Below, piece after piece: positions 6,267 to 24,225 of a stretch of 64,000 bases of DNA (the first letter of the stretch is position 1; each line of letters begins with the position of its first letter). Source of the stretch: Pleurocapsa minor HA4230-MV1 (GTDB taxonomy: Bacteria; Cyanobacteriota; Cyanobacteriia; Cyanobacteriales; Xenococcaceae); assembly GCA_019359095.1 (NCBI GenBank), contig JAHHHZ010000036.1, positions 248,001-312,000 of the forward strand, read 5' to 3'. The position numbers were made by a program, and so were the translations under genes. Below the pieces are notes generated by a model. That model had not been told where the DNA came from, made no database searches, and worked only from the letters and a program-made list of their open reading frames with translations.

Positions 6267-6354
6267 TAACCCCATCGTTTCTGGCCTCGGAAACCGCAAC
6301 GATGGGGCTTTTGTCCCTACCCTTTTAGCAAGGAATTATTAATTATCATACCGC
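6267..6354 (+). promoter_or_regulatory. Conserved-loop hairpin element, copy 1 (before psbA3)
   Basis: A perfect 10-bp stem (CCCCATCGTT / AACGATGGGG, 6270-6279 and 6298-6307) encloses the loop TCTGGCCTCGGAAACCGC. It is followed by CTTTTG and then ACCCTTTTAGCAAGGAATTAT, in which CCTT and AAGG can form a second small hairpin. The same loop and tail recur at 24156-24225 with a different stem sequence. It could be the terminator of the receiver gene, a leader RNA of psbA3, or both. The GGAAAC loop recalls that of cyanobacterial Yfr2-type small RNAs, but I cannot confirm a relation. Confidence 0.6.
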
Positions 6355-6486
6355 ATTTATTAATAACGTTACTTGTTTTAAGGCAAAAGGATAGCTAACA
6401 AATTTCTGTTTCAAACTTTTTTAAGGTTCGTAGTTAACGAACAAAACTTAGTTAATAAATTTTTAGTTGAGAGACAGCAAAAAGCT

Positions 6487-7569
6487 ATGACTACAACAAT
6501 TCAACAACAAGAACAGTTAAGTTTATGGGAGCGTTTTTGTCGGTGGGTTACTAGCACCGAAAATCGACTATATATAGGTTGGTTTGGGGTTTTGATGCTC
6601 CCGTTACTAGGGGTTTCTATTTGCGTTTTTACGATCGCCTTTATTGCTGCCCCTCCAGTTGATATTGATGGTATTCGTGAGCCTGTATCTGGCTCTTTAC
6701 TCTACGGCAATAATATTATTACCGCAGCCGTAGTCCCTACTTCTAATGCTGTAGGATTGCACTTTTATCCAATTTGGGAAGCGGCCTCGATGGACGAATG
6801 GCTATATAATGGTGGCCCGTATCAAATGATTGCTTTTCACTATATTCCTGCTCTTTGCTGCTATTTGGGTCGAGAATGGGAATTAAGCTACCGTTTAGGA
6901 ATGCGTCCTTGGATTTGCGTGGCTTTTAGTGCGCCTTTAGCTGCGACTGTCTCTGTCTTTTTAATCTATCCCATTGGACAGGGAAGTTTTTCTGACGGTT
7001 TACCGATGGGCATTAGCGGTACATTTAATTTTATGTTTGTCTTCCAAGCCGAGCATAATATCTTAATGCACCCATTCCATATGTTAGGTGTGGCTGGGGT
7101 GTTTGGTGGTTCTTTCTTTGCAGCCATGCACGGTTCATTAGTTACATCTTCTTTGATTAAAGAAACCAGTGATAGCGAGTCCCAAAACTATGGTTACAAA
7201 TTTGGTCAAGAAGAAGAAACTTACAACATAGTTGCTGCCCATGGTTATTTCGGTCGCTTGATTTTTCAATACGCTAGCTTCCAAAACAGTCGTAACTTGC
7301 ACTTCTTCTTAGCAGCTTGGCCCGTAGTGTGTATTTGGTTTACTGCTCTAGGTATCTGCATTATGGCATTTAACCTCAATGGTTTTAACTTTAACCAGTC
7401 AATTTTAGACTCTCAGGGAAGAGTGCTTCCTAGTTGGGCAGATGTAATTAATCGCGCCAATTTAGGATTTGAGGTAATGCACGAACGGAATGCTCATAAC
7501 TTTCCCTTAGATTTAGCTTGTGGTGAAGCAACACCTATCGCCTTGAAAGCACCAGTAATTAATAGTTAG
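6487..7569 (+). CDS. psbA3: Far-red photosystem II D1 protein
   Basis: A 360-residue D1, the same length as canonical D1, with five transmembrane helices. Oxygen-evolving ligands are intact: Asp170 in SFSDGLP, Glu189/His190 in FQAEHN, His332/Glu333/His337/Asp342 and the C-terminal Ala344 in [14 protein letters not shown]. It carries a 16-residue C-terminal tail for processing. TyrZ (IYPIGQG) and the P680 histidine (HPFHML) are present. Position 130 is Glu (GREWELS), the high-light-type choice. Its place directly before chlF and psbC2/psbD3/psbB2 marks it as the catalytically competent D1 of far-red PSII rather than a housekeeping copy. Thylakoid membrane. Confidence 0.93.
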
Positions 7570-7584
7570 GGCTTGCTTGGGTCA

Positions 7585-7650
7585 ATGAATGGGTAATGGG
7601 TAATGGGTAATAGGTAATGGGTAATGGGTAATGGGTAATGGGTAATAGTT
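7585..7650. repeat. Heptamer tandem repeat (GGGTAAT)n between psbA3 and chlF
   Basis: About eight units of GGGTAAT/AGGTAAT, followed by imperfect repeats of TACTTGGTACTTGC (about 7668-7691). No gene. The rest of the 177-bp spacer ends with TAAGGAG, the ribosome binding site for chlF. Confidence 0.85.
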
Positions 7651-7746
7651 TTTATGTGTTATTTGCTACTTGGTACTTGCTACTTGGTACTTATTAGTCA
7701 CTGCTAACTAGTCACTGTTCACTGTTTTATAAGGAGCTATCAGTAG

Positions 7747-8880
7747 ATGATACAGCGAGATCGCATACTTAACTCTTCAGCGGAATTAGATTCTCATCTC
7801 AAAACTACTCTCAAAAAGATAGACAACATCAGCTTATGGGAAAGGTTTTGTCGCTGGATTACAAGTACCAATAACCGTATCTATATTGGCTGGTTTGGAG
7901 TGTTAATGATTCCGACAATGCTAACTGCCAGTATTGTTTTTATCATAGCGATCGTCGCTGCACCACCTGTGAATTTAGATCCTTTGGGTTCACCTATTTC
8001 TGGTTCATTATTAGATGGGAATAATCCGATCACAGCAGCAGTTGTGCCAACCTCAGCAGCTATTGGATTGCATTTTTATCCGATTTGGGAGGCTGCTTCC
8101 ATTGATGAGTGGCTCTATAACGGTGGCCCTTATCAATTAATTATTCTGCATTTTATTATTGGCATTATTGCCTATCAAGATCGAGAGTGGGAATTAAGCT
8201 ACCGCTTAGGAATGCGTCCCTGGATTTCTCTGGCTTTTACCGCTCCTGTCGCTGCTGCTGTATCGGTATTGATTATCTATCCTCTGGGACAAGGAGGATT
8301 TTCCGAAGGGATGCCGTTAGGAATTTCAGGTACTTTTTACTTCATGTTTCGATTCCAAGCCGATCACAATATTTTAATGAATCCGTTTCATCAGTTGGGG
8401 GTAATTGGAGTCTTAGGTGGAGCATTACTTTGTGCCGTGCATGGTTCAATTGTCACTTCTACCTTAATTCGCAATACAACTGAACAGGAATCGATTAATG
8501 CAGGCTATAAGCTTGGTCAGAGAAAACCAACCTATAACTTTGGTAAAGCTCAAAATTATCAGCGCAGTATTTGGGGATTGAGTTTTCCTAGTTCGCGATC
8601 GCTCCACTTTTTCTTAGCTGCCTTTCCCGTAGCAGGTATTTGGTCAGCAGCGATCGGGATTGACATTGCTGCTTTTGACTTTGAAGGATTTAATTTTCAA
8701 CAGCCGACGATTGTTCATCAAGGCAAAATTATTCCCACCTGGATGGATGTTGTTCTCGATGCCAATTTGGGTTTGTCAGAAACCACCAAAAAATCAACCA
8801 GTTTACCGATTTTTCCCGACTGGCAAATCAATTCAGAACAAGAAGCCACTAGTTTTCCTAGCGATATAAGGTCGGAGTAA
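7747..8880 (+). CDS. chlF: Chlorophyll f synthase (divergent, 'super-rogue' D1)
   Basis: A 377-residue D1 homologue with a 17-residue longer N-terminus. Water-oxidation ligands are lost: position 170 equivalent is Glu (GGFSEGMP), 189 is Asp (FQADHN), and the C-terminal [13 protein letters not shown] block is absent. TyrZ (IIYPLGQGG), its partner His190 and the chlorophyll-ligand histidine (NPFHQLG) are kept. The QD pair at D1 positions 127-128 (AYQDREWEL, residues 144-145 here) matches the motif reported as diagnostic of ChlF. Known role: light-dependent conversion of chlorophyll a to chlorophyll f. Also called psbA4. Confidence 0.94.
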
Positions 8881-8889
8881 GTGGGAAAA

Positions 8890-8953
8890 GTAATGAGTAA
8901 TGAGTAATGGGTAGCAATCAACAATCAACAATCAATAAATAACAATCAAGCAT
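8890..8953. repeat. Short GAGTAAT and CAATCAA repeats
   Basis: A few copies of GTAATGA(G) followed by AACAATC repeats in the 85-bp chlF-psbC2 spacer. No clear Shine-Dalgarno sequence is visible before psbC2. Confidence 0.7.
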
Positions 8954-8965
8954 TAACAAAAGAAT

Positions 8966-10381
8966 ATGGAAACACCTTTTACTGATTTAACTGTAAATAT
9001 TACTGCCACGGCTGGAGATGATATAAATCCAGTACGAGAAGGAAGAGATCAAGCTTCCACAGGATACGCTTGGTGGGCAGGTAATGCTCGTTTTATTAAC
9101 CTTTCGGGGAAATTTCTAGGAGCGCACGTTGCCCACGCTGGGTTAATTGCCTTTTGGGCAGGGGCAATGCTGCTTTATGAAGTTGCGCACTATGACCCCG
9201 ATCTGCCGATGTTTAGACAAGGCTGCCTGTTGATGCCTCACATTGCTACTCTGGGTTTTGGAGTTGGTGCTGGGGGAGAAGTTATCAGTCTGTTTCCCTT
9301 TATGGCGATCGCCGTTTTGCATTTGATTGGCTCGGCGGTTTTGGGTATTGGCGGACTATATCATTCTCTGCGTGGCCCAAGTAAACTGGCTGGCTTTTTT
9401 GATTTCGATTGGTCAGATAAGGATAAAATCTCCTCGATTCTGGGCTACCATTTGATTGCTTTAGGGGTAGCTGCTCTACTTCTCGTCTGTAAAGCGATGT
9501 TTTGGGGCGGTATTTATGACACTTGGCTACCTGGTGGGGGCGATGTCCGTCTGGTAACGAATCCCACTCTCGATCCAAGAGTGATCTTTGGTTATTTTTT
9601 CCGTAGTCCTCTGGGGGGTGATGGTTGGCTGGTCAGTGTTAACAATCTCGAAGATATAGTCGGTGGTCATATTTGGATGGGCTGTATCTTAATTGCTGGC
9701 GGTATCTGGCACGTTCTGACTGTTCCGTTTAAATGGACTCATAAAGTTTTTGTTTGGTCGGGTGAAGCCTATCTTTCCCAAAGTTTAGGTAATGTGGCAG
9801 GACAGGCATTTATTGCAGCCATGTTTATCTGGTTTAACAATACCGCTTATCCCAGCGAATTCTATGGCCCGACAGTTGCAGAATCTTCTCAAGCCCAGTC
9901 CTTCGTCTTTCTCATGCGAGATCAAGATTTAGGAGCAAATATTGCTAACACTCAAGGCCCTACAGGTTTAGGTAAATACTTACAGCGATCGCCTACTGGA
10001 GAGATTATCTTTGGTGGTGAAACTATGCGCTTTTGGGATTTTCGTGGCCCCTGGCTCGAACCTTTACGGGGAGACCACGGTTTAGATATTGATAAACTAC
10101 GCAACGATGTCCAACCCTGGCAAATACGACGGGCAGCAGACTATATGGTGCAAGCACCTATGGGTTCAATTAACTCCGTAGCTGGTTTAGCCACTGAAAT
10201 CAACGGCTTTAACTTCTTATCACTTCGGACTTGGATGACTGGTTCTCATATTATTCTGGCTTTCTTCTTTCTAGTTGGTCATTGGTGGCACGCAGGTAGG
10301 GCGAGGGCGCAAGCTGCTGGCTTTGAAAGAGGCATCGATCGCAAGGATGAGCCTGTTTTATCGATGGGAGATATTGATTAG
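8966..10381 (+). CDS. psbC2: Far-red photosystem II CP43 antenna protein
   Basis: A 471-residue CP43 with six transmembrane helices carrying chlorophyll-binding histidines ([30 protein letters not shown]). The large lumenal loop contains [20 protein letters not shown], whose Glu and Arg correspond to the E354/R357 pair that contacts the Mn4CaO5 cluster, so this copy should support water oxidation. It serves as the inner antenna of far-red PSII, where chlorophyll f sites are expected. Unlike the usual psbDC overlap, it has its own ATG and psbD3 lies downstream. Confidence 0.93.
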
Positions 10382-10630
10382 TGGGTAGTGGGTAGTAGGT
10401 AGTAGGTAGTAGGTAATGAGTAATGGGTAGTGGTTAGTAGGTAGTAGGTAATGAGTAATGGGTAATGGGTAATGGGTAATCCTTAATCCCTAGCCCCTTG
10501 AAAAGGTAAGTAGGTAGGTTGGGTTAGCGATACAACCACTAAAAGACCTAGAAAGGTCGATATAGAGAGCGTAACCCAACGCATTTAACAATCAACAATC
10601 AACAATCAACAATCAACAACAGAATTTTAG
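10382..10630. repeat. Repeat-filled spacer: heptamers, palindrome and CAATCAA array
   Basis: Three repeat types lie in tandem. At 10382-10481 is a degenerate GGTAGTA/GGTAATG heptamer array starting at the psbC2 stop codon. At 10514-10583 is a hairpin-forming element with arms GTAGGTTGGGTTAGCG and GCGTAACCCAAC. At 10588-10619 are copies of ACAATCA. The GGTTGGGTT element recurs at 15826-15902. Confidence 0.8.
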
Positions 10631-10640
10631 GAGCAAGAAA

Positions 10641-10763
10641 ATGCAGAATTTTCAGAGAGTTTTTAATAGTGTACAAATCATGTCCATCGTAACTTTAACT
10701 ATGGCGATGGCAACCTTAATGTTTATCAGTTTTTTCCTGACAAGTATTCCTAACCAAATATAA
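10641..10763 (+). CDS. Small single-span membrane protein between psbC2 and psbD3
   Basis: Forty residues, starting MQNFQRVFNSVQIMSI and dominated by one hydrophobic segment (residues 12-34, ending FISFFLTSIPNQI). It has a good ribosome binding site (TAGGAG, 8 bases before ATG) and ends 12 bases before psbD3, so co-translation with the D2 gene is likely. It does not clearly match PsbE, F, I, J, K, L, M, T, X or Y. Size and context suggest an accessory low-mass subunit of far-red PSII, which is inference. Confidence 0.55.
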   Translation: MQNFQRVFNSVQIMSIVTLTMAMATLMFISFFLTSIPNQI

Positions 10764-10775
10764 ATCTAAAATTCA

Positions 10776-11834
10776 ATGACTATTGCAATCGATCTTCCAC
10801 AATCAAATATCGGCTGGTTTAGGCAAATTGATGACTGGCTGAAACGCGATCGCTTTGTGTTTATTGGCTGGTCAGGGTTATTACTCTTTCCCTGTTCCTA
10901 TTTAGCGATTGGTGCCTGGTTTACTGGCACTACTTTTGTCAGTGCTTGGTACACCCACGGGTTAGTTAGTTCGTATCTTGAAGGATGCAATGTTTTAACG
11001 GCTGCGGTATCTACTCCAGCAGATAGTATGGGTCATTCTCTCTTATTTCTCTGGGGGCCAGAAGCGAATTGGAATTTTACGCGCTGGTGTCAAATTGGCG
11101 GTTTATGGACGTTTACAGCCTTTCATGGAGTCTTGGGGTTAATCGGCTTTATGCTGCGACAGATAGAAATTGCCCGTCTGATCTCACTACGACCTTATAA
11201 TGCGATCGCTTTTTCTGCTCCCATTGCTATTTTTGTTTCTGTCTTTTTAGTCTATCCCTTGGGACAATCTAGCTGGTTTTTTGCTCCTAGCTTAGGGATA
11301 GCTGGTATCTTTCGCTTTGTGCTGTTTTTCCAGGGTTTCCATAACTATACTCTTAATCCCTTTCACATGATGGGAGTTGCAGGAGTTTTAGGAGGGGCTT
11401 TGCTCTGTGCCATTCATGGGGCAACGGTACAAAACACTTTATTCAAAGATGCCCAAGCTTTTAATACTTTTGGCGCATTTAGTCCCACTCAAGCAGAAGA
11501 AACCTATTCAATGGTTACTGCTAACCGCTTTTGGTCACAGATTTTTGGGATTGCTTTCTCTAACAAACGCTGGCTACATTTCTTTATGTTGTTTGTACCT
11601 GTAACTGGCTTGTGGATGAGTGCTATAGGCATGATTGGTTTAGCTTTTAACCTGCGAGCCTATGATTTTATCTCTCAAGAGTTACGAGCAGCCGAAGACC
11701 CTGGTTTTGAGACTTTCTACACCAAAAATATTTTACTCAATGAAGGTTTGCGAGCTTGGATGGCACCCCAAGATCAGCCCCATGAAAGCTTTCAGTTTCC
11801 AGACGAAGTATTACCACGGGGTAATGCGCAGTAA
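10776..11834 (+). CDS. psbD3: Far-red photosystem II D2 protein
   Basis: A 352-residue full-length D2. TyrD is in [12 protein letters not shown]; the chlorophyll and iron ligands are in [25 protein letters not shown] and [19 protein letters not shown]; the C-terminus is [12 protein letters not shown], close to canonical. D2 pairs with D1 to bind P680, pheophytin, plastoquinone A and non-heme iron. It is preceded by a 40-codon ORF and followed by two more small membrane ORFs. The final codons (GGTAATGCGCAGTAA) run straight into a heptamer array. Confidence 0.94.
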
Positions 11835-11936
11835 CAAGTAACAAGTAACAAGTAACGAGTAACGAGTAATGGGTAATGAGTAATGAGTAATGAGTAATGA
11901 GTAACAAGTAACGAGTAACGAGTAATGGGTAATGGG
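11832..11936. repeat. Heptamer array after psbD3
   Basis: About fourteen heptamers of the types AAGTAAC, GAGTAAC, GAGTAAT and GGGTAAT, starting at the psbD3 stop codon. On the minus strand this creates a spurious repetitive ORF. Confidence 0.85.
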
Positions 11937-11969
11937 TTCTTGATCAATACATTTAGGGAGATATAAGAG

Positions 11970-12092
11970 ATGGTTTTTAGATATGCAATGATTTTGCCAA
12001 TTGTCTTACCAATGTTGTTAATGGCTGCTGTAGCTATTTTTTCAGCCATAACAGTTATTACGGATATCGCTTCTAGCGATCGCACACTTTAG
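11970..12092 (+). CDS. Small single-span membrane protein after psbD3
   Basis: Forty residues, MVFRYAMILPIVLPMLLMAA..., with one hydrophobic helix and a short polar end (SSDRTL). The ribosome binding site AGGGAG lies 9 bases before ATG. Its N-terminus (RYAMILPIVLP) resembles that of the next small ORF at 12166 (RYAIAFPVVYA), suggesting the two are related. The last codons include a HIP1 site. The family is unrecognised; a low-mass photosystem subunit is the best guess from context. Confidence 0.5.
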   Translation: MVFRYAMILPIVLPMLLMAAVAIFSAITVITDIASSDRTL

Positions 12093-12165
12093 ATAATTAA
12101 TCACATTAGTAATTACCTTTTGACTTTTGACTTTTGACTTTTAAAAAGTAATTGGAGGTTCGAGA

Positions 12166-12306
12166 ATGCTGAAAGTTGTTAGATATGCGATCGCTTTTCC
12201 CGTAGTTTATGCAATCATAGCTGCGTCTTTCTCAGTCATGGTAATCGTTTTAGACTATTGCTTTCCTGGCTCGTTAGATGGTACGTATCTCAAGCTTTTT
12301 TTCTAA
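12166..12306 (+). CDS. PsaJ-like small membrane protein inside the PSII block
   Basis: Forty-six residues with ribosome binding site GGAGG 7 bases before ATG. It aligns without gaps, end to end, with PsaJ2 of this window (30920-31060): identities include Y7, P12, V13, I27, L29, Y31, F33, P34, G35, G39, T40 and Y41, with YCFPGSLDGTY against YFFPGLQYGTY. By my count 13 of 46 positions are identical. It is therefore likely a PsaJ homologue or a subunit of common descent, placed just before psbB2. Its N-terminus also resembles the ORF at 11970. Confidence 0.6.
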   Translation: MLKVVRYAIAFPVVYAIIAASFSVMVIVLDYCFPGSLDGTYLKLFF

Positions 12307-12484
12307 CATTTTTGGACATTGGTGAATGCGTAATGTTTTGCTTTTCTACCTGTGAATAACAGTTATTAAAAAGCTAAAAGCTAAGAGCTAACGGCTAATA
12401 GCTACGAACAGTAACATTTTGTACGTCATTACTTAAATAAGCAACGTCAATTTTTGTTTTGTATTTAATATAAGGAGATCACCA

Positions 12485-14038
12485 ATGGGTTTACCTTGGT
12501 ATCGCGTCCATACGGTGGTGTTAAACGACCCAGGGCGATTAATATCCGTTCATTTAATGCACAATGCTCTTTGTGCTGGCTTTGCTGGTTCAATGCTGTT
12601 GTTTGAACTGGCTTTATATGACCCTAGTGACCCCGTACTTAACCCGATGTGGCGACAAGGTTGTTTCTTAATGCCGTTTGTGGCGCGATTAGGAGTAACC
12701 AATTCTTGGCAGGGTTGGAGTATCACGGGGGAAAGCTTTAGTGATCCTGGGTTTTGGACTTTTGAAACTGTAGCGATCGCTCATATTATTTTTTCGGGAC
12801 TACAGTTTTTAGCTGCTTGTTGGCATTGGGTTAACTGGGATTTAGTTACTTTCTTTGATGAAGAAACTGGCGAATCAACCTTAGATTTACCCAGAATATT
12901 TGGCATTCATCTTTTATTAGCGGGTTTACTTTGCTTTGGTTTTGGTGCTTTTCATCTAACTGGTATTTTTGGGCCAGGAATGTGGGTATCAGACCCCTAT
13001 GGACTAACGGGACATATGCAGGGAGTTGCGCCTGTTTGGGACGCATCGGGATTTGACCCCTATAATCCTGGTGGGGTAGTTGCCCATCATATTGCAGCAG
13101 GCATTGTGGGCATTATTGGCGGACTATTTCACATTGTGGTGCGTCCTTCCGAAGAACTGTATAAGTTATTGAGGATGGGTAATATCGAAGGTGCATTAGC
13201 TAGCGGTCTGGCAGTCTTCTTTTTTGCTGGTTTTGTCGCTAGTGCTTCGATGTGGTACGGTACAGCAACCACTCCCGTCGAACTCTGGGGGCCAACTCGT
13301 TTTCAGTGGGATAAAGGCTACTATCAACAGGAAATAGAACATCGAGTCGAAAATAATCTAGCTGCGGGGGATAGTCTATCGCAAGCTTGGTCAAAAATTC
13401 CTGAAAAGTTACTGTTTTACGATTACATTGGCAATAATCCTGCTAAGGGTGGTCTATTCCGCTATGGTCGGATGGTTGATGGGGATGGTTTACCTCTAGC
13501 TTGGCTGGGTCATCCAGTTTTTCAAGATGGTGAGGGAAGAGAGTTAACTGTCCGACGCATGAATAGCTTCTTTGAAACTTTCCCAACGGTTTTAACCGAT
13601 CGAGATAACATCGTTCGTGCTGATATTCCTTTCCGTCGAACTGAAGCGGAAAATAGCTTTGAGCAAACAGGAGTCACAGTTAGTTTCTACGGCGGACTAT
13701 TAAATGGTCAAACCTTTAACAACCCTGTCGAAGTCAAGAAATATGCTCGCCAAGCAGTCTTGGGAGAAGCTTTTGAATTCGATACCGAAACCTATGATTC
13801 CGATGGCGTATTCCGTACCAGTAATCGCGGTTTCTTTGCCTATTTCCACGCCTGTTTTGCTTTACTTTGGTTTTTTGGTCATATTTGGCACGGCACTCGC
13901 GCCATATTCAGCGATGTCTTTTCGGGTATCAATATCGAACTAGAAGAACAAGTCGAGTTTGGCGTTTGGACAAAAGTTGGCGATGTTACCAGTCGGAAGC
14001 AGCCAGAACTTGTACCGCTACCAGGAAGTAATGAGTAG
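12485..14038 (+). CDS. psbB2: Far-red photosystem II CP47 antenna protein
   Basis: A 517-residue CP47 starting [37 protein letters not shown], as in canonical PsbB. It has six membrane helices with paired histidines ([33 protein letters not shown]) and the long lumenal loop ([41 protein letters not shown]). It is the inner antenna on the D2 side and likely binds chlorophyll f in the far-red enzyme. The ribosome binding site AAGGAG lies before ATG. The last codons (AGTAATGAGTAG) are themselves heptamer-like and continue into a repeat array. Confidence 0.94.
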
Positions 14039-14085
14039 TGGGTAATGGGTAATGGGTAATGGGTAATAGGTAATGGGTATTGATT
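14030..14085. repeat. Heptamer array at the psbB2 stop codon
   Basis: About six GGGTAAT-type units. The first unit overlaps the psbB2 termination codon. Confidence 0.8.
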
Positions 14086-14193
14086 TTCTGCCTATTTCTA
14101 ACTAGAAACTTAACTTATGCCGAAGTCTACTAACCACTAACTACTAACAGCCATAACAGATCAACCTAGGTCAAATAATTGGAATGACTAAAA

Positions 14194-14418
14194 ATGACAC
14201 AATCCAAATTTGCCTCGAAAAAAACTGCCCCCCTACAGTATTTCTTTAAACCAATTAACTCCGAAGCAGGAAAAGTTACTCGTGGTTGGGGGACAACACC
14301 ACTGATGGCAGGAATCATCTTGTTGTTTGTTTTATTTCTGCTGATCATTGTCCAGATTGTTAATTCTTCGATTCTACTGGAGGGGATGAACGTAGATTGG
14401 ACGAGTTTGAAGTACTAA
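14194..14418 (+). CDS. psbH2: Far-red photosystem II PsbH subunit
   Basis: Seventy-four residues. The family core is clear: [28 protein letters not shown], then one transmembrane helix ([22 protein letters not shown]) and the end VDWTSLKY. It is a few residues longer at the N-terminus than usual cyanobacterial PsbH (about 64-67). PsbH packs beside CP47 and helps stabilise PSII and the QB region. Placed after psbB2 as in canonical genomes. Confidence 0.92.
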
Positions 14419-14439
14419 CCATTAACCATTAACAAAACT

Positions 14440-14580: not shown

Positions 14581-14645
14581 GGTACGCGCAGCGTAATCGC
14601 CAATAAATAAATTAGCCAATAAATTACATTTACAGGAGAAGAATC

Positions 14646-15122: not shown

Positions 15123-15222
15123 AGGAGCTTCGCTCCCAGCTATAAGCTCTAAGCCATAAGCTATAAGCTTCTTAAATTACCAAGAATTTAGCTCATACAT
15201 AAAACAATCAGGAGATAAAATC

Positions 15223-16066: not shown

Positions 16067-16543
16067 ATGAGCATTATTACCCGTTCTATTGCTAGTGCGG
16101 ATCGTGAAGCACGCTATCTGAGTCTGGGAGAGTTAAGAGCGATCGCAGATTTTTATCAAGGTGGACAGGATCGGCTGCGTCTAGCTCAAATTTTAGTCGC
16201 TAATGAAGAGGCGATCATAGAAAAAGGTAGTCAGAGATTTTGGTCGCGATATCCTAATACTCCCAGTAATACTGGCAATCCGACTTTTAGAGCTTCTTGT
16301 CTACGAGATCAAGGCTGGTATCTGCGTCTAATTACTTATGCGCTCGTCTTGGGTGATACAGAACCAATCGAGAAAATAGGGATTAAAGGTGTAAAAGAGA
16401 TGTATGAGTCGCTGGAAATTCCCCTGAAAAACTTGGCTGAATGTATGCGTTGTCTCAAAGAAGTAACTACCGAAATGCTCGGTATTCAAGATGCGAATGC
16501 GATCGCTCCTTATTTTGATTACGTTATTCAAGGATTTCAGTGA
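16067..16543 (+). CDS. Far-red allophycocyanin alpha subunit, ApcD-like (second of three)
   Basis: 158 residues: MSIITRSIASADREARYLSLGELRAI, bilin cysteine in FRASCLRDQGWYLRLITYALVLGD, EMYESLEIPLKNLAECMRCLKE, and PYFDYVIQGFQ. It is more ApcA-like at the N-terminus than its neighbours but shares the RDQGWY motif. Core phycobilisome alpha chain for far-red absorption. It is separated from apcB2 by the nested inverted repeat. The start codon is preceded by TAGTTAACA with no strong ribosome binding site. Confidence 0.87.
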   Translation: MSIITRSIASADREARYLSLGELRAIADFYQGGQDRLRLAQILVANEEAIIEKGSQRFWSRYPNTPSNTGNPTFRASCLRDQGWYLRLITYALVLGDTEPIEKIGIKGVKEMYESLEIPLKNLAECMRCLKEVTTEMLGIQDANAIAPYFDYVIQGFQ

Positions 16544-16798
16544 AAATAAAGGGCTTTGCCCTAGCTATTAGCTCTTAGCCGTTAGCTTTTAGCTCGATCA
16601 AACATAGTCTTGAACTATGCCTGATCGTAGACACCGTAAAGACAGTGGGGTCTTAAACCCAATCGCGCTTTTAGAAGTTAAACCAAGGCTAAAAGCGCAG
16701 CGCTTCGCGCAGATCGTCGTCTTACGACGACTGGGACGCGGTAGCGTCCGCAGCTGACAGCTAAAAGCTTTTTTGATAAATAATATTAGGTAAAACAA
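16544..16798. other. Spacer before apcE2 with inverted repeats
   Basis: No gene. It contains AGCTATTAGCTCTTAGC-type repeats and a GC-rich hairpin region (about 16700-16760: GTCGTCTTACGACGAC and GACGCGGTAGCGTCC). These resemble dispersed palindromes seen elsewhere rather than a specific regulator site. Confidence 0.5.
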
Positions 16799-19111
16799 AT
16801 GAATGTTAATACAGGCGGTGGTAGTCCCGTTGTTCATCCTCAAAGATATCAAACCACACCCCTTGCCGTAATTTCTCAGGCAGAGCAACAGGATCGTAAT
16901 TTAAAAGTAAGTGAACTTAATCGACTCGCTGATTATTTTAATTCTGGTACTAAGTTATTAGAAATTGTTAATAGGATTAGTCAAAACGCCGATGCTATTG
17001 TAGCTGCTGGAGGCGATCGCATTTTCTATGGTGGTAATGCGATGGATTATCTGGAAAAGCCTCAACAATTGGTCGATCTACCAGGCTACACTAAACCGAT
17101 AACTGTTACTCAGGCTGCCGTTGCTAAAGCCAAGGTTACTCAGAACAAAAGTAAAAGCCAAAATTTCCAGAATTTCCCGAATTTGCAGCCTCGTTCGTTA
17201 ATTAGTGGTCGTACCTTTAACTTTGTCGAACTGTTACTAGAAGCAGTTTACAGGATGCAGGCGACGGGTAGAGAACCATTACCAGGGGGTTTTAAGCCGA
17301 TTAATATCTCTCGTTATGGTACGAAAAGAATGAAGCGATCGATGCGAGATTTGGGTTGGTTTTTGCGCTACATTACTTATGCGATCGTCGCTGGCAATGA
17401 GAGTATTTTAACTGTTAATACCAAGGGGTTACGGGGGGTAATTCCTGAAGATGTGACGGTAGCTACTATTGTTGCTCTCCAAGAGATGTGTTGGAAGTCT
17501 TTGACTTATTTTCCTGAAGATCGGGAGGCGAAAGAGATCGTTAGATATTATTTTGATGTCTTAATCAAAGCCTATGAAGTCGAAAAGCCTGCGGTGAGAC
17601 TGAGAGAAGGAGTATCTAATGACCAGCAAGGCTTACAACTACCCCAAAGTTATTTTTTGGCTGCGGAATCACGACCTAAATTTGCGCTGAAATCTAATAC
17701 GTCGGTGACAGAAAAACAAGCTGTAATTAAAGCAGCTTACCGACAGATATTTGAATGCGACATCAATCGCACCTATGGCATGGCTTTCAAAGAATTAGAA
17801 TCTCAGGTTACAGGTGGCAACATTTCGATGAAAGAGTTTATCCGTAGCCTGGGTAAAACTCGTCTCTATCGCCGATTATTCTATGAACCGTACACTATTT
17901 CTAGAGTTATCGAACTAGCATTTCCTCACTTTTTAGGTCGAGGTTTGAGTTCAATGGAAGAGTTTCAAGATTACTTTGAAATTATCTCCCGTGGTGGTTT
18001 GTCAGCTTTAATTGATGCTTTAATCAACTCGGCTGAATATGCCGATTATTTCGGTGAAGAAACCGTCCCCTATGTAAGAGGTTTAGGTCAAGAAGCTCAG
18101 GAATGTCGTAACTGGGGAGCGCAATTAGACCAATTTAAATATAGTGCTGTCGTTCGTAAAATACCTCAATTTGTGACTCTGTTTGGTAACTATCAACAGC
18201 CTTTACCAAACCAGCATCCTTACGGTGTTGGCAACGATCCTCTAGAAACTCAGTTTGGGGCAGTTTTTCCCAGCGAAACACGCGATCGCTACGCTCAACC
18301 GACACTTTTTGGTAAAGATAATCAGCGTCTATTGATTAACTCTAATTTAAGTAATCAAAATGTAACTAACAGTTTAGTTCCAGAAACAATTTTGAAGCTG
18401 AACAATAGTGATCGTGAACATCGACAACGAAATGTTAATCTCTCACATCATTCTGTTACAGCTATCATCAAAGGATCTTATCGACAGGTTTTGGGACGAG
18501 AACCTTATTCTGGTCAACATTTAACCGTAGCGGAAACTAAACTTAAAAACGGTGAAATTACAGTCCGCGAATTTGTACGTCAATTAGCTAAATCTACTTG
18601 GTTTCGTAGTTTATATTGGGACAAACTTTATATTACAAAAGCGATCGAGTACATTCATCGGCGTTTATTAGGTCGCCCTACTTATGGACGCTTGGAAATG
18701 AATCAGTATTACGATCTCTGTTCTAAACAAGGTTTTTATGCTCTAATTGATGAAATTTTAGACAGCGATGAATATCTAGCAACTTTTGGTGAAGATACAG
18801 TCCCCTATGAACGCTATCTTACCCCTAAAGGCTGGGCAAAGCGATCGCTCCCAGAACCAATTAATTGGTCACAAGCACAATTATCACGTCAAACTACCGC
18901 AGGAGAAGTTGTAGCTCAAAAAATTAGAGAAGATCGAGCGCGACTGACTAAATTGGCTGCCGAAAATAATGGCAGTAGCGTAACCAAAACAACTCCTGTA
19001 AAACAAACTATTTTGGCAACAGCTAACGAAGATAGTCAATCTCAGACAGTTACAAACTCTAATTCAATTCCAGTTGAACCCGAACCAGAAAAGCTAAAAG
19101 CTGATAGCTAA
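16799..19111 (+). CDS. apcE2: Far-red core-membrane linker ApcE2
   Basis: 770 residues, shorter than ordinary ApcE. Residues 15-260 form the alpha-phycobiliprotein-like domain with its loop insertion (about 75-140). At the place where canonical ApcE carries the bilin cysteine (EKACS..AT), this protein reads VIPEDV (residues 214-219), so the phycocyanobilin should bind non-covalently and red-shifted, as reported for ApcE2. Two linker (Rep) domains follow, about 300-425 (KQAVIKAAYRQIFECDI) and 550-675 (SVTAIIKGSYRQVLGREP), which implies a two-cylinder core. The end is a low-complexity tail. It anchors the core to far-red PSII. Confidence 0.94.
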   Translation: MNVNTGGGSPVVHPQRYQTTPLAVISQAEQQDRNLKVSELNRLADYFNSGTKLLEIVNRISQNADAIVAAGGDRIFYGGNAMDYLEKPQQLVDLPGYTKPITVTQAAVAKAKVTQNKSKSQNFQNFPNLQPRSLISGRTFNFVELLLEAVYRMQATGREPLPGGFKPINISRYGTKRMKRSMRDLGWFLRYITYAIVAGNESILTVNTKGLRGVIPEDVTVATIVALQEMCWKSLTYFPEDREAKEIVRYYFDVLIKAYEVEKPAVRLREGVSNDQQGLQLPQSYFLAAESRPKFALKSNTSVTEKQAVIKAAYRQIFECDINRTYGMAFKELESQVTGGNISMKEFIRSLGKTRLYRRLFYEPYTISRVIELAFPHFLGRGLSSMEEFQDYFEIISRGGLSALIDALINSAEYADYFGEETVPYVRGLGQEAQECRNWGAQLDQFKYSAVVRKIPQFVTLFGNYQQPLPNQHPYGVGNDPLETQFGAVFPSETRDRYAQPTLFGKDNQRLLINSNLSNQNVTNSLVPETILKLNNSDREHRQRNVNLSHHSVTAIIKGSYRQVLGREPYSGQHLTVAETKLKNGEITVREFVRQLAKSTWFRSLYWDKLYITKAIEYIHRRLLGRPTYGRLEMNQYYDLCSKQGFYALIDEILDSDEYLATFGEDTVPYERYLTPKGWAKRSLPEPINWSQAQLSRQTTAGEVVAQKIREDRARLTKLAAENNGSSVTKTTPVKQTILATANEDSQSQTVTNSNSIPVEPEPEKLKADS

Positions 19112-19168
19112 AAGCTAATAGCTTAAAACTAATAAACAAACAACGTAAAATCGTAACTCTTCGCCAAT

Positions 19169-19690
19169 ATGAGTATAGTTAAACAAGTGATTCTTAATGC
19201 CGATGAAGAACTTCGCTATCCCAGCCTCAGCGAGATTCATCTCTTACAAAACTTTTGTCATACGGGAGCAAATAGAATTCGGATTGCCAGGATTCTTGCC
19301 GACAATGAAACTAGACTGGTGCAACGGGGTTCTCGTAAATTCTGGAAAAAATGCCCAGTTACTCCTAGTAATAGCGGAAATCTGCGCAAGACTAACTCTT
19401 GTCAGCGCGATCAAGGCTGGTATATCCGTTTAATTGCCTATTGCGTTTTAGCTGGTAACAATCAGCCATTGGATGATATTGGTATCCTGGGGATGAGAGA
19501 AATGTATCAGTCCCTTGGTATTCCTTTAGGTAATTGGGTCGAAGCCTTGCGTTGTTTAAAAGAAGAAGCGATCGCTTTACTTGACGCTCAAGATGCGATC
19601 GAGGTTATTCCCTATTTTGACCATCTTATTCAAGCTCTCGCTAATCCTGGGCCTCCCTATCGGATTAATGACGGTTCGGTGGAATATTAA
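19169..19690 (+). CDS. Far-red allophycocyanin alpha subunit, ApcD-like (third of three)
   Basis: 173 residues. MSIVKQVILNADEELRYPSLSEIHLLQNFCHTGANRIRIARIL is the most ApcD-like start of the three. Bilin cysteine in RKTNSCQRDQGWYIRLIAYCVLAG, then EMYQSLGIPLGNW and PYFDHLIQAL. It has a 13-residue extension at the C-terminus (NPGPPYRINDGSVEY) absent from the others, which could affect stacking in the core or contact with the membrane. Follows apcE2 by 57 bases; probably co-transcribed. Confidence 0.87.
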   Translation: MSIVKQVILNADEELRYPSLSEIHLLQNFCHTGANRIRIARILADNETRLVQRGSRKFWKKCPVTPSNSGNLRKTNSCQRDQGWYIRLIAYCVLAGNNQPLDDIGILGMREMYQSLGIPLGNWVEALRCLKEEAIALLDAQDAIEVIPYFDHLIQALANPGPPYRINDGSVEY

Positions 19691-19824
19691 TAAGGAATAA
19701 CTTGAACAACAGGCTTTCTTCCCCCTATTGAAAGTCTTTTCAGCCACTATCGAACATATCAACTTTTCTTGGTGCAAGAGGTGCAAAATGTTAGTTAAAA
19801 TCAAATTTTAACCAGAAGTTAGCA

Positions 19825-19998
19825 ATGGATGCTCAGAAAAGCGATCGCCTGACATTGCCAAAAATTGACAGCAATTCGCTATCAGCAGATTCAATGCGAT
19901 CTATCGGCGATCAACCCATCCTAACTTGGGAAGAACCCGATTTTGAAAAGTTCGATCTGTGTATGGAAGTCACCGCCTACGTTTACCATTGGCAATGA
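19825..19998 (+). CDS. PqqA-like precursor peptide
   Basis: Fifty-seven residues ending ILTWEEPDFEKFDLCMEVTAYVYHWQ. The W.xP.F...x..E(V)T.Y pattern matches PqqA, whose conserved Glu and Tyr (E-V-T-x-Y) are cross-linked to make pyrroloquinoline quinone. The N-terminal 30 residues are longer than in typical PqqA (about 23-30 in total). The stop overlaps the ATG of a PQQ-type sugar dehydrogenase (ATGA). No pqqB, C, D or E gene is in the window. It may be a PQQ precursor or a related ribosomally made peptide. Confidence 0.6.
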   Translation: MDAQKSDRLTLPKIDSNSLSADSMRSIGDQPILTWEEPDFEKFDLCMEVTAYVYHWQ

Positions 19999-21248
19999 GA
20001 AAAACAAGAACCAATCGCCTAATTCAAGGGCTAGGAAGCGCGATCGTCCTATTAATTTTTGCCAGTTGTTCTCAGTTACAAAACTTGCCCAACGCCTCCA
20101 CTAATGCCGAAAATACAAGTTCCCCAGTAGCTACAAATACACCATCGAACGCCCCCGTTGTTCCTACTGGCGATGTTGCTGCTGCTAGCAGCTTCTCAAA
20201 AACAACTTTAGTAGAAGGCTTAGAACACCCTTGGAGCATTGCTTGGCTAACCGATGGCGCAATGTTGATTACCGAACGACCAGGGCGACTACGCATCGTT
20301 CGCAACGGAACCCTCGATCCAACCCCAATTACTGGAGTACCAAAAGTTTTAGCCGTCGGTCAAGGCGGTTTGATGGATGTCTCGTTGCATCCTAACTTTG
20401 CCCAAAATCGCTTTATCTATCTCACCTATTCTCATGGAAGCGAAGATGCAAACCGCACGCGCGTCGCACGAGCAAGGTTTGACGGCAAAGCTTTAAACGA
20501 CCTAAAAGTCATATTTGAGGCTACTCAGCCTAAATCAGGCGACCAGCATTTTGGTTCGCGTATTACTTGGCTACCTGACGGGACAATGTTGATAGCTATT
20601 GGTGATGGTGGTAACCCACCCATCTCTCTCAACGACAATTTGATTCGCAAACAAGCACAAAACCTCAATAGTCGTCTCGGTAAGATCGTGCGAATTAATG
20701 ATGATGGTTCTATCCCCAAAGACAATCCCTTTGCCACAAATGCTAATGCCGATCGAGCGATTTGGAGTTACGGACATCGTAATATTCAAGGACTAGCCTT
20801 AGATCCGACTTCCCAGCGAGTATGGGCAACCGAACATGGTTCGCGCGGTGGGGACGAACTCAACCAGCCCCAAGCAGGGAAAAATTACGGTTGGCCTGTC
20901 GTTACCTACAGCGAAGAATACACTGGTGGGGAAATCTCCAACGAGCGATCGCGTCCTGGGATGGAAGACCCAAAAGTTGTCTGGACACCAGCAACCGCCC
21001 CTTCAGGACTGGCATTTTATACGGGCGATCGCTTTGGACAATGGAAAGGCGATCTCTTCGCAGGTGGACTAATTTCGCAGGATGTTCGCCGTATCGATTT
21101 AGACGAATCGGGTAATGTGGTAGGTCAAGATGCGATCGATATCGGTCAGCGTGTGCGCGATGTGCGCCAAGGGCCAGACGGATTGTTGTACGTTCTCACA
21201 GACGAACAAAATGGGCAGTTAATTAGTCTCGAACCTACTGGAGGTTAA
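19995..21248 (+). CDS. PQQ-dependent aldose sugar dehydrogenase, lipoprotein (GSDH family)
   Basis: 417 residues from the ATG that overlaps the PqqA-like stop; an earlier ATG at 19959 would overlap that gene. A lipoprotein signal peptide (VLLIFASC, lipobox Cys) is followed by a linker, then the six-bladed glucose/sorbosone dehydrogenase propeller: LEHPWSIAWLTDGAMLITERPG, GQGGLMDVSLHPNF, GDQHFGSRITWLPDGTMLIAIGDGG, WATEHGSRGGDELN, APSGLAFYTGDRF, RDVRQGPDGLLYVLTDE. The family oxidises aldoses with PQQ and passes electrons on. It acts at the membrane face of the periplasm. Confidence 0.88.
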   Translation: MRKTRTNRLIQGLGSAIVLLIFASCSQLQNLPNASTNAENTSSPVATNTPSNAPVVPTGDVAAASSFSKTTLVEGLEHPWSIAWLTDGAMLITERPGRLRIVRNGTLDPTPITGVPKVLAVGQGGLMDVSLHPNFAQNRFIYLTYSHGSEDANRTRVARARFDGKALNDLKVIFEATQPKSGDQHFGSRITWLPDGTMLIAIGDGGNPPISLNDNLIRKQAQNLNSRLGKIVRINDDGSIPKDNPFATNANADRAIWSYGHRNIQGLALDPTSQRVWATEHGSRGGDELNQPQAGKNYGWPVVTYSEEYTGGEISNERSRPGMEDPKVVWTPATAPSGLAFYTGDRFGQWKGDLFAGGLISQDVRRIDLDESGNVVGQDAIDIGQRVRDVRQGPDGLLYVLTDEQNGQLISLEPTGG

Positions 21249-21272
21249 ATTTAATTTTATTTGACTGAAAAA

Positions 21273-21298
21273 AGTATTAAGTCAAAAGAGTTAATACT
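21273..21298. terminator. Possible bidirectional terminator
   Basis: An 8-bp perfect inverted repeat, AGTATTAA ... TTAATACT, with a 10-base loop between the convergent dehydrogenase and receiver genes. It is AT-rich, so the strength is uncertain. Confidence 0.4.
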
Positions 21299-21324
21299 CC
21301 GCCACTCCAAATACCACAGTACTT

Positions 21325-21693
21325 CTAACTAAGAACTTGAGCGATGCGATTTGAGAGTTCAAAAGGATCGTAGGGTTTGGTAATTACTCCTGACACTTGT
21401 AACCGAGTAAATTGACGTTGTTCGGCTGGATGGGCTTTGGCGGTGAGAAACATGACTGGAATGTCTCTAGTTACGGTATTAGCTTGTAATTCTTTTAAAG
21501 TTTCTAAACCATCCATATCTGGCATCATAACATCCAGTAAGATTAGATCGGGTTGTTCGGCGATCGCTTCGACTAATCCCGTTCTGCCTGAATTGGCGGT
21601 TACAATTTGCCAATTACCAACAATTTCTAAGCAAAGTTGGGTGGCTTCTCTGATATCGTCATCATCATCGATAATTAAAATTTTTTTAGTCAT
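21325..21693 (-). CDS. rfpC: CheY-like single receiver, RfpC candidate
   Basis: 122 residues, a classical receiver domain: ILIIDDDDDIREATQ (acidic pocket), LILLDVMMPDMDG (phosphoacceptor Asp), VMFLTAKAHP (Thr/Ser), GVITKPYDPFEL (Lys). No output domain, so it would relay phosphate. In FaRLiP systems RfpC is a small CheY-like shuttle between the phytochrome kinase RfpA and the DNA-binding RfpB. The position next to an RfpB-like gene and inside the cluster supports this name. Confidence 0.65.
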   Translation of the reverse strand: MTKKILIIDDDDDIREATQLCLEIVGNWQIVTANSGRTGLVEAIAEQPDLILLDVMMPDMDGLETLKELQANTVTRDIPVMFLTAKAHPAEQRQFTRLQVSGVITKPYDPFELSNRIAQVLS

Positions 21694-21812
21694 TCTAAAT
21701 CTAAAATGTCGTCAAGAAGACTGTATTTCCATTGCCGTTAAATATTCAGCATGACAAGGAGCGACAGTGCGAAATTGAATATATTCACCATCATGATCTT
21801 TAACTAAGGCAT

Positions 21813-23666
21813 TTATGCCACCAAGCTGGTGAGTAATTGACCACGATTGAGGTGATTAAATATTTTAGGAACTAATTGTGAGGAAGTTTGGGTTTTACTA
21901 ATACAATCATTACCACCTGCTCTTAAAATTTCCTGAACAGTACTAAGGTCGTTGTGAATTGTCAAAAACAAAATTGGTAACTCTCGCCAACGACAGTCAT
22001 TTCGCAGTAGTTGACATAGCTCAATCCCATTCAAGTAAGGCATTGCCACATCTAAGATGAGTAGATCTGGCTTCAATTTAGGGATTATCTGCCACAGATC
22101 TAGGGAATTGTCTAAGACAGTTAAGTCGATCTTGAGGGGGTTTAATAAATTTTTGATCACCGCCAGGATCTGTGGGTCATCATCTACTACTAAAATTTTG
22201 GCAACTTTCTGCTGAGATTGTTGTAAAGCTTTAACAATTGATTTGGTGGCTTGGATATCCAAACTAGCTCGCTGGAGCAAGATGTGATGATTGAGACGGG
22301 CGATTTTTAGCCGTAAAGAAGTTATGCCTTTAAGCTTTGCTGCCTCTTCTTCACAGTCGGTAAACAGAATTGTTGGTAAAGGTAATCTCTCCTCAAAGAT
22401 TTGAGCAAATTCATCTATGGTTTTAACCGTAGAGTTAGCCAGAAAAAATTCCCAGATCAGAGCATCGAGATTAGTCATCGCTAAAGCCTTTTTTAGAGAT
22501 GTCGGCTCTTTTACCAGTTTGAAACTCATGTCGAGCGCAGTCATTTCGGCAACCAGTTGCTGTACTAGTTTGGGATGATTATCTACCGCCAATATTACAG
22601 GTCGATTTTGATGTACTGGGTTTAATTGTGGCTCAACATCAGGTTTTAAGGATGTTTTAAAAGCTGCCAATAGCTCTGAAAATTCCCTTGCTCGATCTAC
22701 CTTTGAGCCGATTTTTAATAATTGTTCCATCTCCAATGCCAGACGAGAACCTTGAGCAAAGCCAAAAACCCCCAATCCTCCTGCTAGCTTATGAGCAGCC
22801 CTTTGTGCCTGTTCTAAAAGCTGACTTTCTAAATTACCTGCTAGCCAAGCATGATTAGCTTGTTCGAGAATTGCCAAGCGATCGCTATTTACATGCTCAA
22901 ACTTTTGCCAGACTGCTGTTAATTCTTGCGTAATTTGTTGACACAATAATTGTTCTGTTTGCTGTTCTATTTTCTCAGAATCAGCTTCTTTATTTAATGG
23001 CTTCAGACGATAACCAATACCATAAACAGTTTCGATAAAATCAGCCTTAGCACCTACTTGTTTTAGCTTGCGCCGTAAATCTTTAATATGAGCAGCGATC
23101 GCATTTTCGCTTGGAGCTTCTTCTATATCCCATAAACGCTCTAGGATCGTTTCTCTTGTCAAGACGCGATCGTCACTACGTAAAAAAAGCTCTAATAAAC
23201 GATATTCTTTGGGAGTTAAAGTTAATTTTTTTCGATCATATGTTACTTCATGATTACTAGAATTTAAACTTAGTTTTCTCCATTGTAAAATTTGTGGTGT
23301 AAGAGAACTTTTACGCCGTAGTAAAACGCGAATACGAGCTAATAATTCAGTAACTTCAAAAGGTTTAACTACATAATCATCTGCTCCTGCATCTAAGCCA
23401 ATGACTTTTTTACTATTAGAATTTTGAGCAGTTAATAATAATACAGGAGTTTGATTACCCGCAGAACGCAATCTTTTACATAATTCAATTCCATTTAGTT
23501 TGGGTAAAATAATATCGAGCAAAATCAAGTCATAATCATAAGCTTCGATAAACTCCCAAGCTAATTCACCTTCATCAGCATGATCGACAATATAATGGCG
23601 ATCGCGCAGGATATTTTCTAAAGCTTGAGCAATAATTTGATCATCTTCAACTAATAAAATTTTCAT
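21813..23666 (-). CDS. rfpB: RfpB-like multidomain response regulator
   Basis: 617 residues. Domains in order: receiver 1-120 (LILLDIILPKLNG, KPFEV); OmpR/PhoB winged helix 125-225 (ALTPKEYRLLELF-like LTLTPKEYRLLELFLR, GIGYRLKP); Hpt-like helical domain about 240-340 (RAAHKLAGGLGVFG with the candidate phospho-His); a degenerate receiver about 350-470 whose aspartate site reads LDALIWEF; and a complete receiver 490-610 (KILVVDDDP, LLILDVAMPYLNG). RfpB is described as a DNA-binding regulator with two receivers around a winged helix, which this fits. It is the likely activator of the flanking operons. Confidence 0.7.
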   Translation of the reverse strand: MKILLVEDDQIIAQALENILRDRHYIVDHADEGELAWEFIEAYDYDLILLDIILPKLNGIELCKRLRSAGNQTPVLLLTAQNSNSKKVIGLDAGADDYVVKPFEVTELLARIRVLLRRKSSLTPQILQWRKLSLNSSNHEVTYDRKKLTLTPKEYRLLELFLRSDDRVLTRETILERLWDIEEAPSENAIAAHIKDLRRKLKQVGAKADFIETVYGIGYRLKPLNKEADSEKIEQQTEQLLCQQITQELTAVWQKFEHVNSDRLAILEQANHAWLAGNLESQLLEQAQRAAHKLAGGLGVFGFAQGSRLALEMEQLLKIGSKVDRAREFSELLAAFKTSLKPDVEPQLNPVHQNRPVILAVDNHPKLVQQLVAEMTALDMSFKLVKEPTSLKKALAMTNLDALIWEFFLANSTVKTIDEFAQIFEERLPLPTILFTDCEEEAAKLKGITSLRLKIARLNHHILLQRASLDIQATKSIVKALQQSQQKVAKILVVDDDPQILAVIKNLLNPLKIDLTVLDNSLDLWQIIPKLKPDLLILDVAMPYLNGIELCQLLRNDCRWRELPILFLTIHNDLSTVQEILRAGGNDCISKTQTSSQLVPKIFNHLNRGQLLTSLVA

Positions 23667-24150
23667 TTATCTACAAATTTAAATTTTTTTGTCAGGATCT
23701 AGTTTTTATAATAAATTCACTAACAATTATCTAATTTTATTTATTATTCTTAATTAAGATTACTTTTATTTCTACCTAAATATTTTTAGATTTTTTAAGC
23801 ATTTTACAAATATTTACTATTTAAAGATATTTACCTACTATTTTAGTTGATTGTTCATTTTATTTTTTCTATAAAGAGCATATACACATATCAATAGTAT
23901 TAATAATCATTAATCAGGATCGATAAAGTAAGCTAGTTAGTATTTTTTCAATTGAATTATAAAGTTTTGTAAAAACAATAGGCTTATTTTATAATTTTTT
24001 ATTTTCTGTTGCTATAAGTTTAAGTAGAGTAATTTGTATATTGCTACCAACAATATTTTGTAGTATTTGGTATATTTCCCAAATCATAAACATTAAGTAA
24101 TCAAACAAGTAATCAAACGAGCTTTGTTTGGTTAATGCCAAAATTATTAA
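23667..24150. other. AT-rich gene-free spacer between rfpB and the psaA2 leader
   Basis: Extremely AT-rich with many TTTTAT and AATAAT tracts and no credible ORF. It should hold the divergent promoters of rfpB and of the 24226 ORF/psaA2 transcript. I could not define a -10/-35 pair with confidence. Confidence 0.5.
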
Positions 24151-24225
24151 AATCGACTTATTGCCTCTGGCCTCGGAAACCGCAGCAATAATCGATATTT
24201 ACCCTTTTAGTAAGGAGTTATCGTT
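24151..24225 (+). promoter_or_regulatory. Conserved-loop hairpin element, copy 2 (upstream of psaA2)
   Basis: The stem ATCGA(C)TTATTGC pairs with GCAATAATCGAT around the loop CTCTGGCCTCGGAAACCGC. It is followed by ACCCTTTTAGTAAGGAGTTAT, in which CCTT can pair with AAGG and cover the Shine-Dalgarno AAGGAG of the next ORF. Loop and tail match copy 1 at 6267-6354, while the stem sequences differ but still pair. That pattern is what selection on an RNA structure leaves. The function is unknown. Confidence 0.65.

Follow-up and report, generated by a model that had tools for sequence, protein, structure and literature searches.

A Candidate Leader RNA Element before chlF, psbA3 and psaA2 in Far-Red Photosynthesis Gene Clusters of Cyanobacteria

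What is the same kind of hairpin doing ahead of both a photosystem II gene and a photosystem I gene in one far-red gene cluster? The question arises in Pleurocapsa minor HA4230-MV1 (assembly GCA_019359095.1, contig JAHHHZ010000036.1), of which we analyzed positions 248,001 to 312,000 of the forward strand, a stretch of 64,000 nucleotides that is called the window below and whose own numbering is used throughout. The next full gene after the first hairpin (copy 1) is psbA3, which encodes the D1 protein (6487-7569, +; TIGR01151), and that after the second (copy 2) is psaA2, assigned to the far-red clade of PsaA by family match and tree (24620-26950, +). A third gene, chlF, which encodes chlorophyll f synthase, lies at 7747-8880 (+) and was recognized as psbA-like by its family match (520.8 bits, below the psbA cut-off of 596). 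The names chlF, rfpB, rfpC, psbA3 and psaA2 were derived from family matches together with the nomenclature of far-red light photoacclimation (FaRLiP), by which some cyanobacteria are able to live on far-red light. The explanation that we prefer, at a probability of about two in three, is that both copies are members of a family of cis-acting leader RNAs, apparently undescribed so far, that was probably ancestral to chlF, was copied to psbA3 and psaA2, and acts on translation or mRNA stability.

A constant loop in a covarying stem

In copy 1, the arms CCCCATCGTT (6270-6279) and AACGATGGGG (6298-6307) enclose the loop TCTGGCCTCGGAAACCGC (6280-6297), in which an inner CGG-AAA-CCG mini-hairpin is possible. 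The conserved tail ACCCTTTTAGCAAGGAATTATT follows at 6319-6340, with a Shine-Dalgarno (SD)-like AAGGA at 6330-6334. In copy 2, the arms read TCGA-c-TTATTGC (24153-24164) and GCAATAA-TCGA (24185-24195), the loop is CTCTGGCCTCGGAAACCGCA (24165-24184), and the tail TACCCTTTTAGTAAGGAGTTA (24200-24220) has the SD sequence AAGGAG at 24212-24217. All of these features are on the plus strand, and the arms were defined by direct reading and by the covariation of the stems described below. TCTGGCCTCGGAAACCGC is enclosed by both stems, and ACCCTTTTAG(C/T)AAGGA(A/G)TTAT comes after both hairpins. An earlier note on this DNA had described a hairpin with an invariant loop and differing, still-pairing stems in the two copies, and direct reading at these positions confirmed that description. 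The 16-base loop core TGGCCTCGGAAACCGC has two exact sites in the window, or four sites when up to three mismatches are allowed, against 0.20 expected; the whole 5.6 Mb genome holds only the two exact sites and one more with two mismatches. An antisense small RNA was rejected on the ground that no reverse-strand copy of TGGCCTCGGAAACCGC was found in the genome within two mismatches, short antisense seeds being still conceivable.

The stem was examined by aligning 22 copies (20 of them distinct) on the loop alone, with no gaps and no structure presumed. A single helix emerged, in which 15-20 of the 22 copies pair at ten consecutive positions, neighboring registers pairing only at scattered positions. 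When eight pairs of this stem were scored in the 20 distinct copies, 145 of the 160 cells were paired, a value reached by 0 of 20,000 shuffles (mean 122.6 paired cells, standard deviation 3.9), and seven of the eight pairs had changed on both sides. The window-family copies alone (n = 11) gave 79 paired cells out of 88, which was reached by one of 20,000 shuffles. In a 23-copy alignment (A4), 91.7% of the stem cells were paired, compared to at most 48.3% with slid partners. The 15-base core, moreover, is identical in all 16 psbA3 and psaA2 copies of families f1 and f8. A structure conserved through compensatory base changes is characteristic of cis-regulatory leader RNAs, and both the 20-copy test and A4 display it; these counts support the proposal that the copies represent a structured RNA whose core is invariant and whose stems change in a compensatory way.

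Judged from the aligned copies, the element consists of a hairpin of about 8-11 bp with, in most cases, the conserved loop UGGCCU[C/A]GGAAACC[G/U]. This is followed by a linker with a pyrimidine-rich stretch able to pair with the SD sequence, by AAGGA(G), and by a start codon 3-14 nucleotides further on.

Occurrence beside far-red genes and position at start codons

The window family comprises 27 genomes, and a wider scan with the model R2 (13 copies) covered 388 genomes of the class (genomes are denoted by G and families by f). Exact or one-mismatch copies were found in six of the 27 family genomes, always beside psbA3, psaA2 or chlF. A pattern scan of the family with up to two mismatches matched 16 of the 27, a reversed control pattern being about as frequent, and direct reading found stem and tail only at the exact or one-mismatch matches. 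As a far-red marker we used apcD, which gives a good separation; RfpB was dropped because its paralogues are too numerous, and an RfpB-based contig scan gave 80 loci swamped by response-regulator domains, none of which was taken as evidence. The best apcD identity was at least 69% (64% in G629) in 31 of the 388 genomes. Five of the six element carriers have far-red apcD at 91-100% identity (the window genome, G016, G017, G018 and G022); the sixth, G001, has psaA2, psaB2, psaL2, rfpB and the element, yet no far-red apcD (best match 47%). None of the 21 element-free family genomes has it, the best identity there being 54%.

In the 388-genome scan, the element was found directly before chlF in four genomes of family f48 (G501, G663, G456 and G559), and a laxer R2 run on 39 chosen genomes added G655, for five of the eight f48 chlF genes examined. 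G017 and three genomes of family f8 (G303, G315 and G342) have three copies apiece, one before each of psbA3, chlF and psaA2; the UGGCC part of the loop deviates in the chlF copies of G303 and G315. Diverged yet recognizable chlF leader hairpins occur in G555, G567, G629 and G561 (f56), and probably also in G167, G212 and G373; the one in G212 was read by eye, the script having chosen another hairpin. G342 and G373 were outside the training set of a further model, R3, which recovered them beside far-red genes.

The R2 scan of the 388 genomes (E ≤ 0.1 each) matched 11 genomes, with about 39 expected by chance, and a second whole-genome model scan (E ≤ 0.02) matched 14, with about 8 expected by chance. 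Model matches were accepted only if they lay before chlF, psbA3 or psaA. Taken as chance were six of the 11 genomes, including G138, in which the match is behind a psbA gene instead of before it, and G100 from the scan at E ≤ 0.02. A match between psbA3 and apcD in G559 and G501 was set aside as a possible psbA3 terminator. The model search across far-red and other genomes that had been suggested as a check gave matches that recur before psbA3 and psaA2 and, most widely, immediately before chlF. By its genomic neighbors, the element is tied to far-red photosynthesis genes.

The position of the element is equally regular. An ATG follows 3-14 bases after AGGA in 30 of 31 copies, the exception being the window psbA3 copy, where ATC stands instead. 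Directly behind the 31 elements are chlF (12 copies), a gene of 225-234 amino acids (two), short open reading frames (ORFs) of 11-126 amino acids (16) and this ATC (one). The ATC, at 6345-6347 (+), takes the place of the ATG that opens an ORF of 11-26 amino acids in G016, G017, G018 and G022; on this comparison, the start codon of the window copy is lost. Another mark of cis-regulatory leader RNAs, a fixed place ahead of start codons in the neighborhood of related genes, was found in these 30 copies; the constant distance to the ATG, together with the ORFs behind it, indicates that the element is a translation-start region. In G001 and G018, the 225-234-amino-acid gene behind the psaA2 copy encodes a response regulator, its receiver domain having been tested in the G018 protein, and the 40-amino-acid ORF behind copy 2 (MRFHNADLVRSSRINSVLAR..., 24226-24348, +) resembles the N-terminus of this protein by eye. 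The earlier placement of the element before psbA3 and psaA2 needs rewording: it holds for the next full genes, but the ORF that immediately follows these copies is either a short one or that of a response regulator. The window also encodes a 136-amino-acid receiver-domain protein (33.3 bits; 5736-6146) upstream of psbA3, which adjoins an rfpC-like gene in relatives and could be a further regulator.

A promoter-like box, TTCTTCATAAGTTTTTCA, lies upstream of copy 1 at 6181-6198 (+), with two mismatches to TTCTTCATTAGTTCTTCA, a consensus that was drawn by eye, partly from sequences later scored. As TTCTTCAT.AGTTCTTCA with up to five mismatches, the box was found 48-375 bases upstream of 24 of the 34 chlF genes tested, and in 23 of these 24 cases no more than one of 200 shuffles gave an equal match. 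All seven psbA3 copies tested have it with 2-4 mismatches; before psaA2 it was absent in seven f1 and f8 copies, the best match having 6-7 mismatches. T-rich sequence and a -10-like motif, CCTA..CT or TAATAT, often come after it. The box is perhaps a far-red promoter, and possibly an RfpB site.

Possible action, opposing evidence and alternatives

Far-red acclimation has been described as a transcriptional program under RfpA, RfpB and RfpC. If the element is a leader RNA, transcription would be turned on upstream of it, and the leader would then set the loading of ribosomes on the mRNA, the lifetime of the mRNA, or both, while its constant loop would be read by a factor: a protein, a small RNA or a small molecule. 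Shared by chlF, psbA3 and psaA2, such a leader would place a post-transcriptional layer on top of the far-red transcriptional control. Coordination of photosystem II and photosystem I through the element is possible, because related loops are found on chlF, psbA3 and psaA2 in G017, G303, G315 and G342. The ancestral site was probably the leader of a chlF operon. In the f48 genomes, chlF, psaA2 and psaB2 are consecutive behind a single element, and in other families, too, the element is immediately followed by chlF; in two families the element is also before psbA3 and psaA2, to which it would have been copied later. Engineered strains producing chlorophyll f use foreign promoters such as Ptac, according to excerpts of PMC11424453, and may be without this leader; the element could matter there.

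A number of observations weigh against this reading. The folding stability of either window copy by itself is ordinary (z ≈ -1.2), so that the case for the element must rest on relatives. Among these, the stem test is weak or moderate in smaller subsets: its result was reached by 312 of 20,000 shuffles for the psaA2 copies of f1 alone, by 982 for the psbA3 copies alone and by 2804 for the chlF copies alone; in the latter two subsets the test is weaker because the stems vary little. Within the loop, the outer pair of the inner mini-hairpin is C:G in 15 of 23 copies, A:U in four and G:C in two (one is unpaired and one has a gap), and this same pair is broken, as G.G in three f32 copies and as C.U in the chlF copy of G342. 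This makes the CGG-AAA-CCG mini-hairpin likely rather than proved.

The hiding of the ribosome binding site by a hairpin in the tail, as proposed in the earlier note, fared unevenly. A CCTT/AAGG mini-hairpin is possible in both copies and is part of the best fold when either short stretch is folded, and a four-base anti-SD is present in 20 of 23 linkers, compared to 10.3 expected. With the following ORF included, the mini-hairpin is missing from the best fold of copy 2, and the predicted accessibility of the SD sequence, at 0.27, was hardly different from the 0.30 obtained with shuffled linkers, being below the shuffled value in 19 of 28 cases. Hiding of the site is weakly supported by these predictions. 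A pseudoknot between loop and tail was also tried and rejected, the only helix being one of three columns, loop CCU with SD AGG, 93% paired and with zero double changes.

Comparison of the chlF leaders indicates that the element is dispensable before this gene. Reading of 39 leaders gave 12 clear and two probable homologous hairpins, with 0 of 11 in family f45. In a shuffle test of the 39, 12 hairpins were matched by no more than one of 60 shuffles; ten of them are among the 14 homologous ones, and those of G022 and G570 are unrelated. The chlF hairpins of G017, G501 and G561 are listed as homologous despite being matched by 19, 3 and 5 of 60 shuffles, respectively. In the window, the chlF hairpin is gone, and only the SD part is kept, as the leader remnant AAGGAGCTATCAGTAGATG (7731-7749, +), behind a 7-base repeat array at 7588-7646; the chlF gene of G017, by comparison, retains its hairpin. 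Heptamer tandem repeats (such as AATGGGT) lie between far-red genes at 7588-7646, 10379-10478, 11830-11934 and 14028-14079, and one array occupies the site of the chlF leader hairpin in relatives. For psbA3 and psaA2, any link would be indirect, via the intervening ORF or via the entire mRNA: the reading frame that starts behind the element is a short ORF (psbA3 copies of relatives, psaA2 copy of the window), the response-regulator gene (psaA2 copies of G001 and G018) or chlF.

Nor is the association with far-red genomes strict. G456 and G373 have the element without far-red apcD (44% in G456); G456 has chlF, psaA2 and an rfpB-like gene, and the copies in both genomes are beside chlF-, rfpB- and psaA2-like genes. 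In three f32 genomes (G182, G113 and G194), an ORF of 109-126 amino acids comes after the element, followed by psaA. Far-red apcD was not found in these (best match 49% in G182 and G113; none listed for the incomplete G194). In the tree, from which the partial G194 gene was left out, the psaA genes of G182 and G113 belong to the clade of ordinary PsaA, where the other G113 psaA is their neighbor, and lie outside the far-red clade. That the gene is a second psaA is established in G113, which has another; no other psaA is listed for the drafts G182 and G194. Against the ChlF profile, the f32 ORFs ranked 2-4 of 3003 (E = 0.23-1.1, not significant), and ChlF ancestry was rejected as not significant, one of 3000 decoys, all of them shuffles of the G113 protein, having outscored all three. 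The ORF could be what decay has left of a ChlF start, and the f32 copies either weaken a strict far-red link or possibly mark a lost far-red cluster.

Among the alternatives, the one that survives best is a special case of the leader reading, so that their odds overlap: a 5' stabilizer without a switch, in which hairpin and loaded ribosome would shield long photosystem mRNAs. We regard it as possible, if the lesser prospect. The site just before the start codon suits protection, SD hiding is without clear selection, and the ORF directly behind often seems dispensable; plain protection, however, needs no constant 15-base core. A more doubtful proposal is that the element is a far-red RNA switch, whose loop would serve as an aptamer that binds a metabolite of the pigment pathway, or be recognized by a dedicated factor, and would gate the translation of chlF. 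In the off state, the CCU of the loop could pair with the AGG of the SD sequence. Were this true, the cell would produce chlorophyll f and far-red photosystems only at times when they are of use to it.

Slightly less likely again, the psbA3 and psaA2 copies could be functionless leftovers from the duplication and rearrangement of the region in which chlF starts. In relatives, the psbA3 copies are followed only by ORFs of 11-86 amino acids, some with chlF-like starts by eye, the window copy has lost its ATG, and the f32 ORFs are slightly ChlF-start-like at the nonsignificant scores given above. Decay would not produce a core that is identical in 16 of 16 copies while stems and ORFs have changed, nor stem changes that compensate each other. 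We consider it improbable that the element is a DNA operator, framed by a palindrome, to which RfpB or some other regulator binds. The constant core might be a DNA motif and the loci are RfpB-linked, but the stem sequence varies freely as long as pairing holds, the position is fixed to the start codon in 30 of 31 copies, and a separate promoter-like box is found further upstream of many chlF genes and psbA3. Least likely is an intrinsic terminator of the preceding gene, for which copy 1 is suitably G+C-rich and followed by CTTTTGT, but which is disfavored because a clear U run is lacking after copy 2 and the f48 and f56 hairpins, as well as by the fixed start-codon distance and the invariant core.

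Known RNA systems and other RNA features

Rfam models, at both gathering and lax scores (the latter over 24100-24620 for copy 2), matched neither copy; psaA RNA and PhotoRC, which the earlier note had named for this check, were among them. On five relatives' loci they gave nothing relevant (one group II intron). The closest published kinds are the psaA RNA, the PhotoRC motifs and the Downstream-peptide RNAs, and none fits. The psaA RNA (RF01752) is described in the relevant section of PMC2864571 as a structured RNA in the possible 5' untranslated region of cyanobacterial psaAB operons, with three hairpins, often with UNCG tetraloops, and as absent upstream of other psa genes. Both it and the element are structured RNAs in cyanobacterial photosystem gene leaders, but the element has one hairpin, a weak tail hairpin of its own and a long constant loop, and is most widespread before chlF; the RF01752 covariance model gave no match at the gathering score or, over 24100-24620, at lax scores. 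PhotoRC-I (RF01716), PhotoRC-II (RF01717) and psbNH (RF01753) are cyanobacterial or marine motifs found with photosynthesis genes, which in the case of PhotoRC are probably psbA (same section of PMC2864571). The element shares this association; their models gave no match at the gathering score in the window or in lax searches, the structures being compared through the models only. Downstream-peptide RNAs (RF01704) precede ORFs of 17-100 amino acids without known family (PMC2864571, same section). They and the glnA RNAs (RF01739) are short cyanobacterial leaders, and the Downstream-peptide ORFs are like those here; the element differs in its far-red photosynthesis genes, and neither model matched at gathering or lax scores. 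Leaders regulated by CsrA have one GGA in the loop of a hairpin and another in the SD sequence, a layout that the element shares. CsrA control was rejected: CsrA was not found in the window genome by a search that was positive in three of 14 control genomes, and the loop GGA is lost in three f56 copies of the alignment.

A literature search on far-red clusters, outside which lay subscription journals and preprints, turned up no account of a leader, a riboswitch or any other RNA element. A far-red transcriptome study (PMC6424891) does not, in its available portion, use the words untranslated, post-transcriptional or small RNA, the sole riboswitch mention in that of PMC10830646 is a glutamine-riboswitch reference, and PMC9740203, in excerpt, suggests in a general way that psbA is controlled by non-coding RNA.

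G212 has two further leader hairpins, at about 1500-1570 (-) of L291 and 1490-1570 (+) of L296, whose stems are GCGATCGC and whose loops resemble AGCCU.GGAAA; they precede two small proteins that look alike and have no Pfam match. In the window itself, Rfam gave a strong IsrR match (135.5 bits) at 9410-9596 (-), antisense to psbC2, which may reflect only psbC/isiA coding homology or may be a real antisense RNA. A cobalamin riboswitch (52 bits) was matched at 48001-48148 (-).

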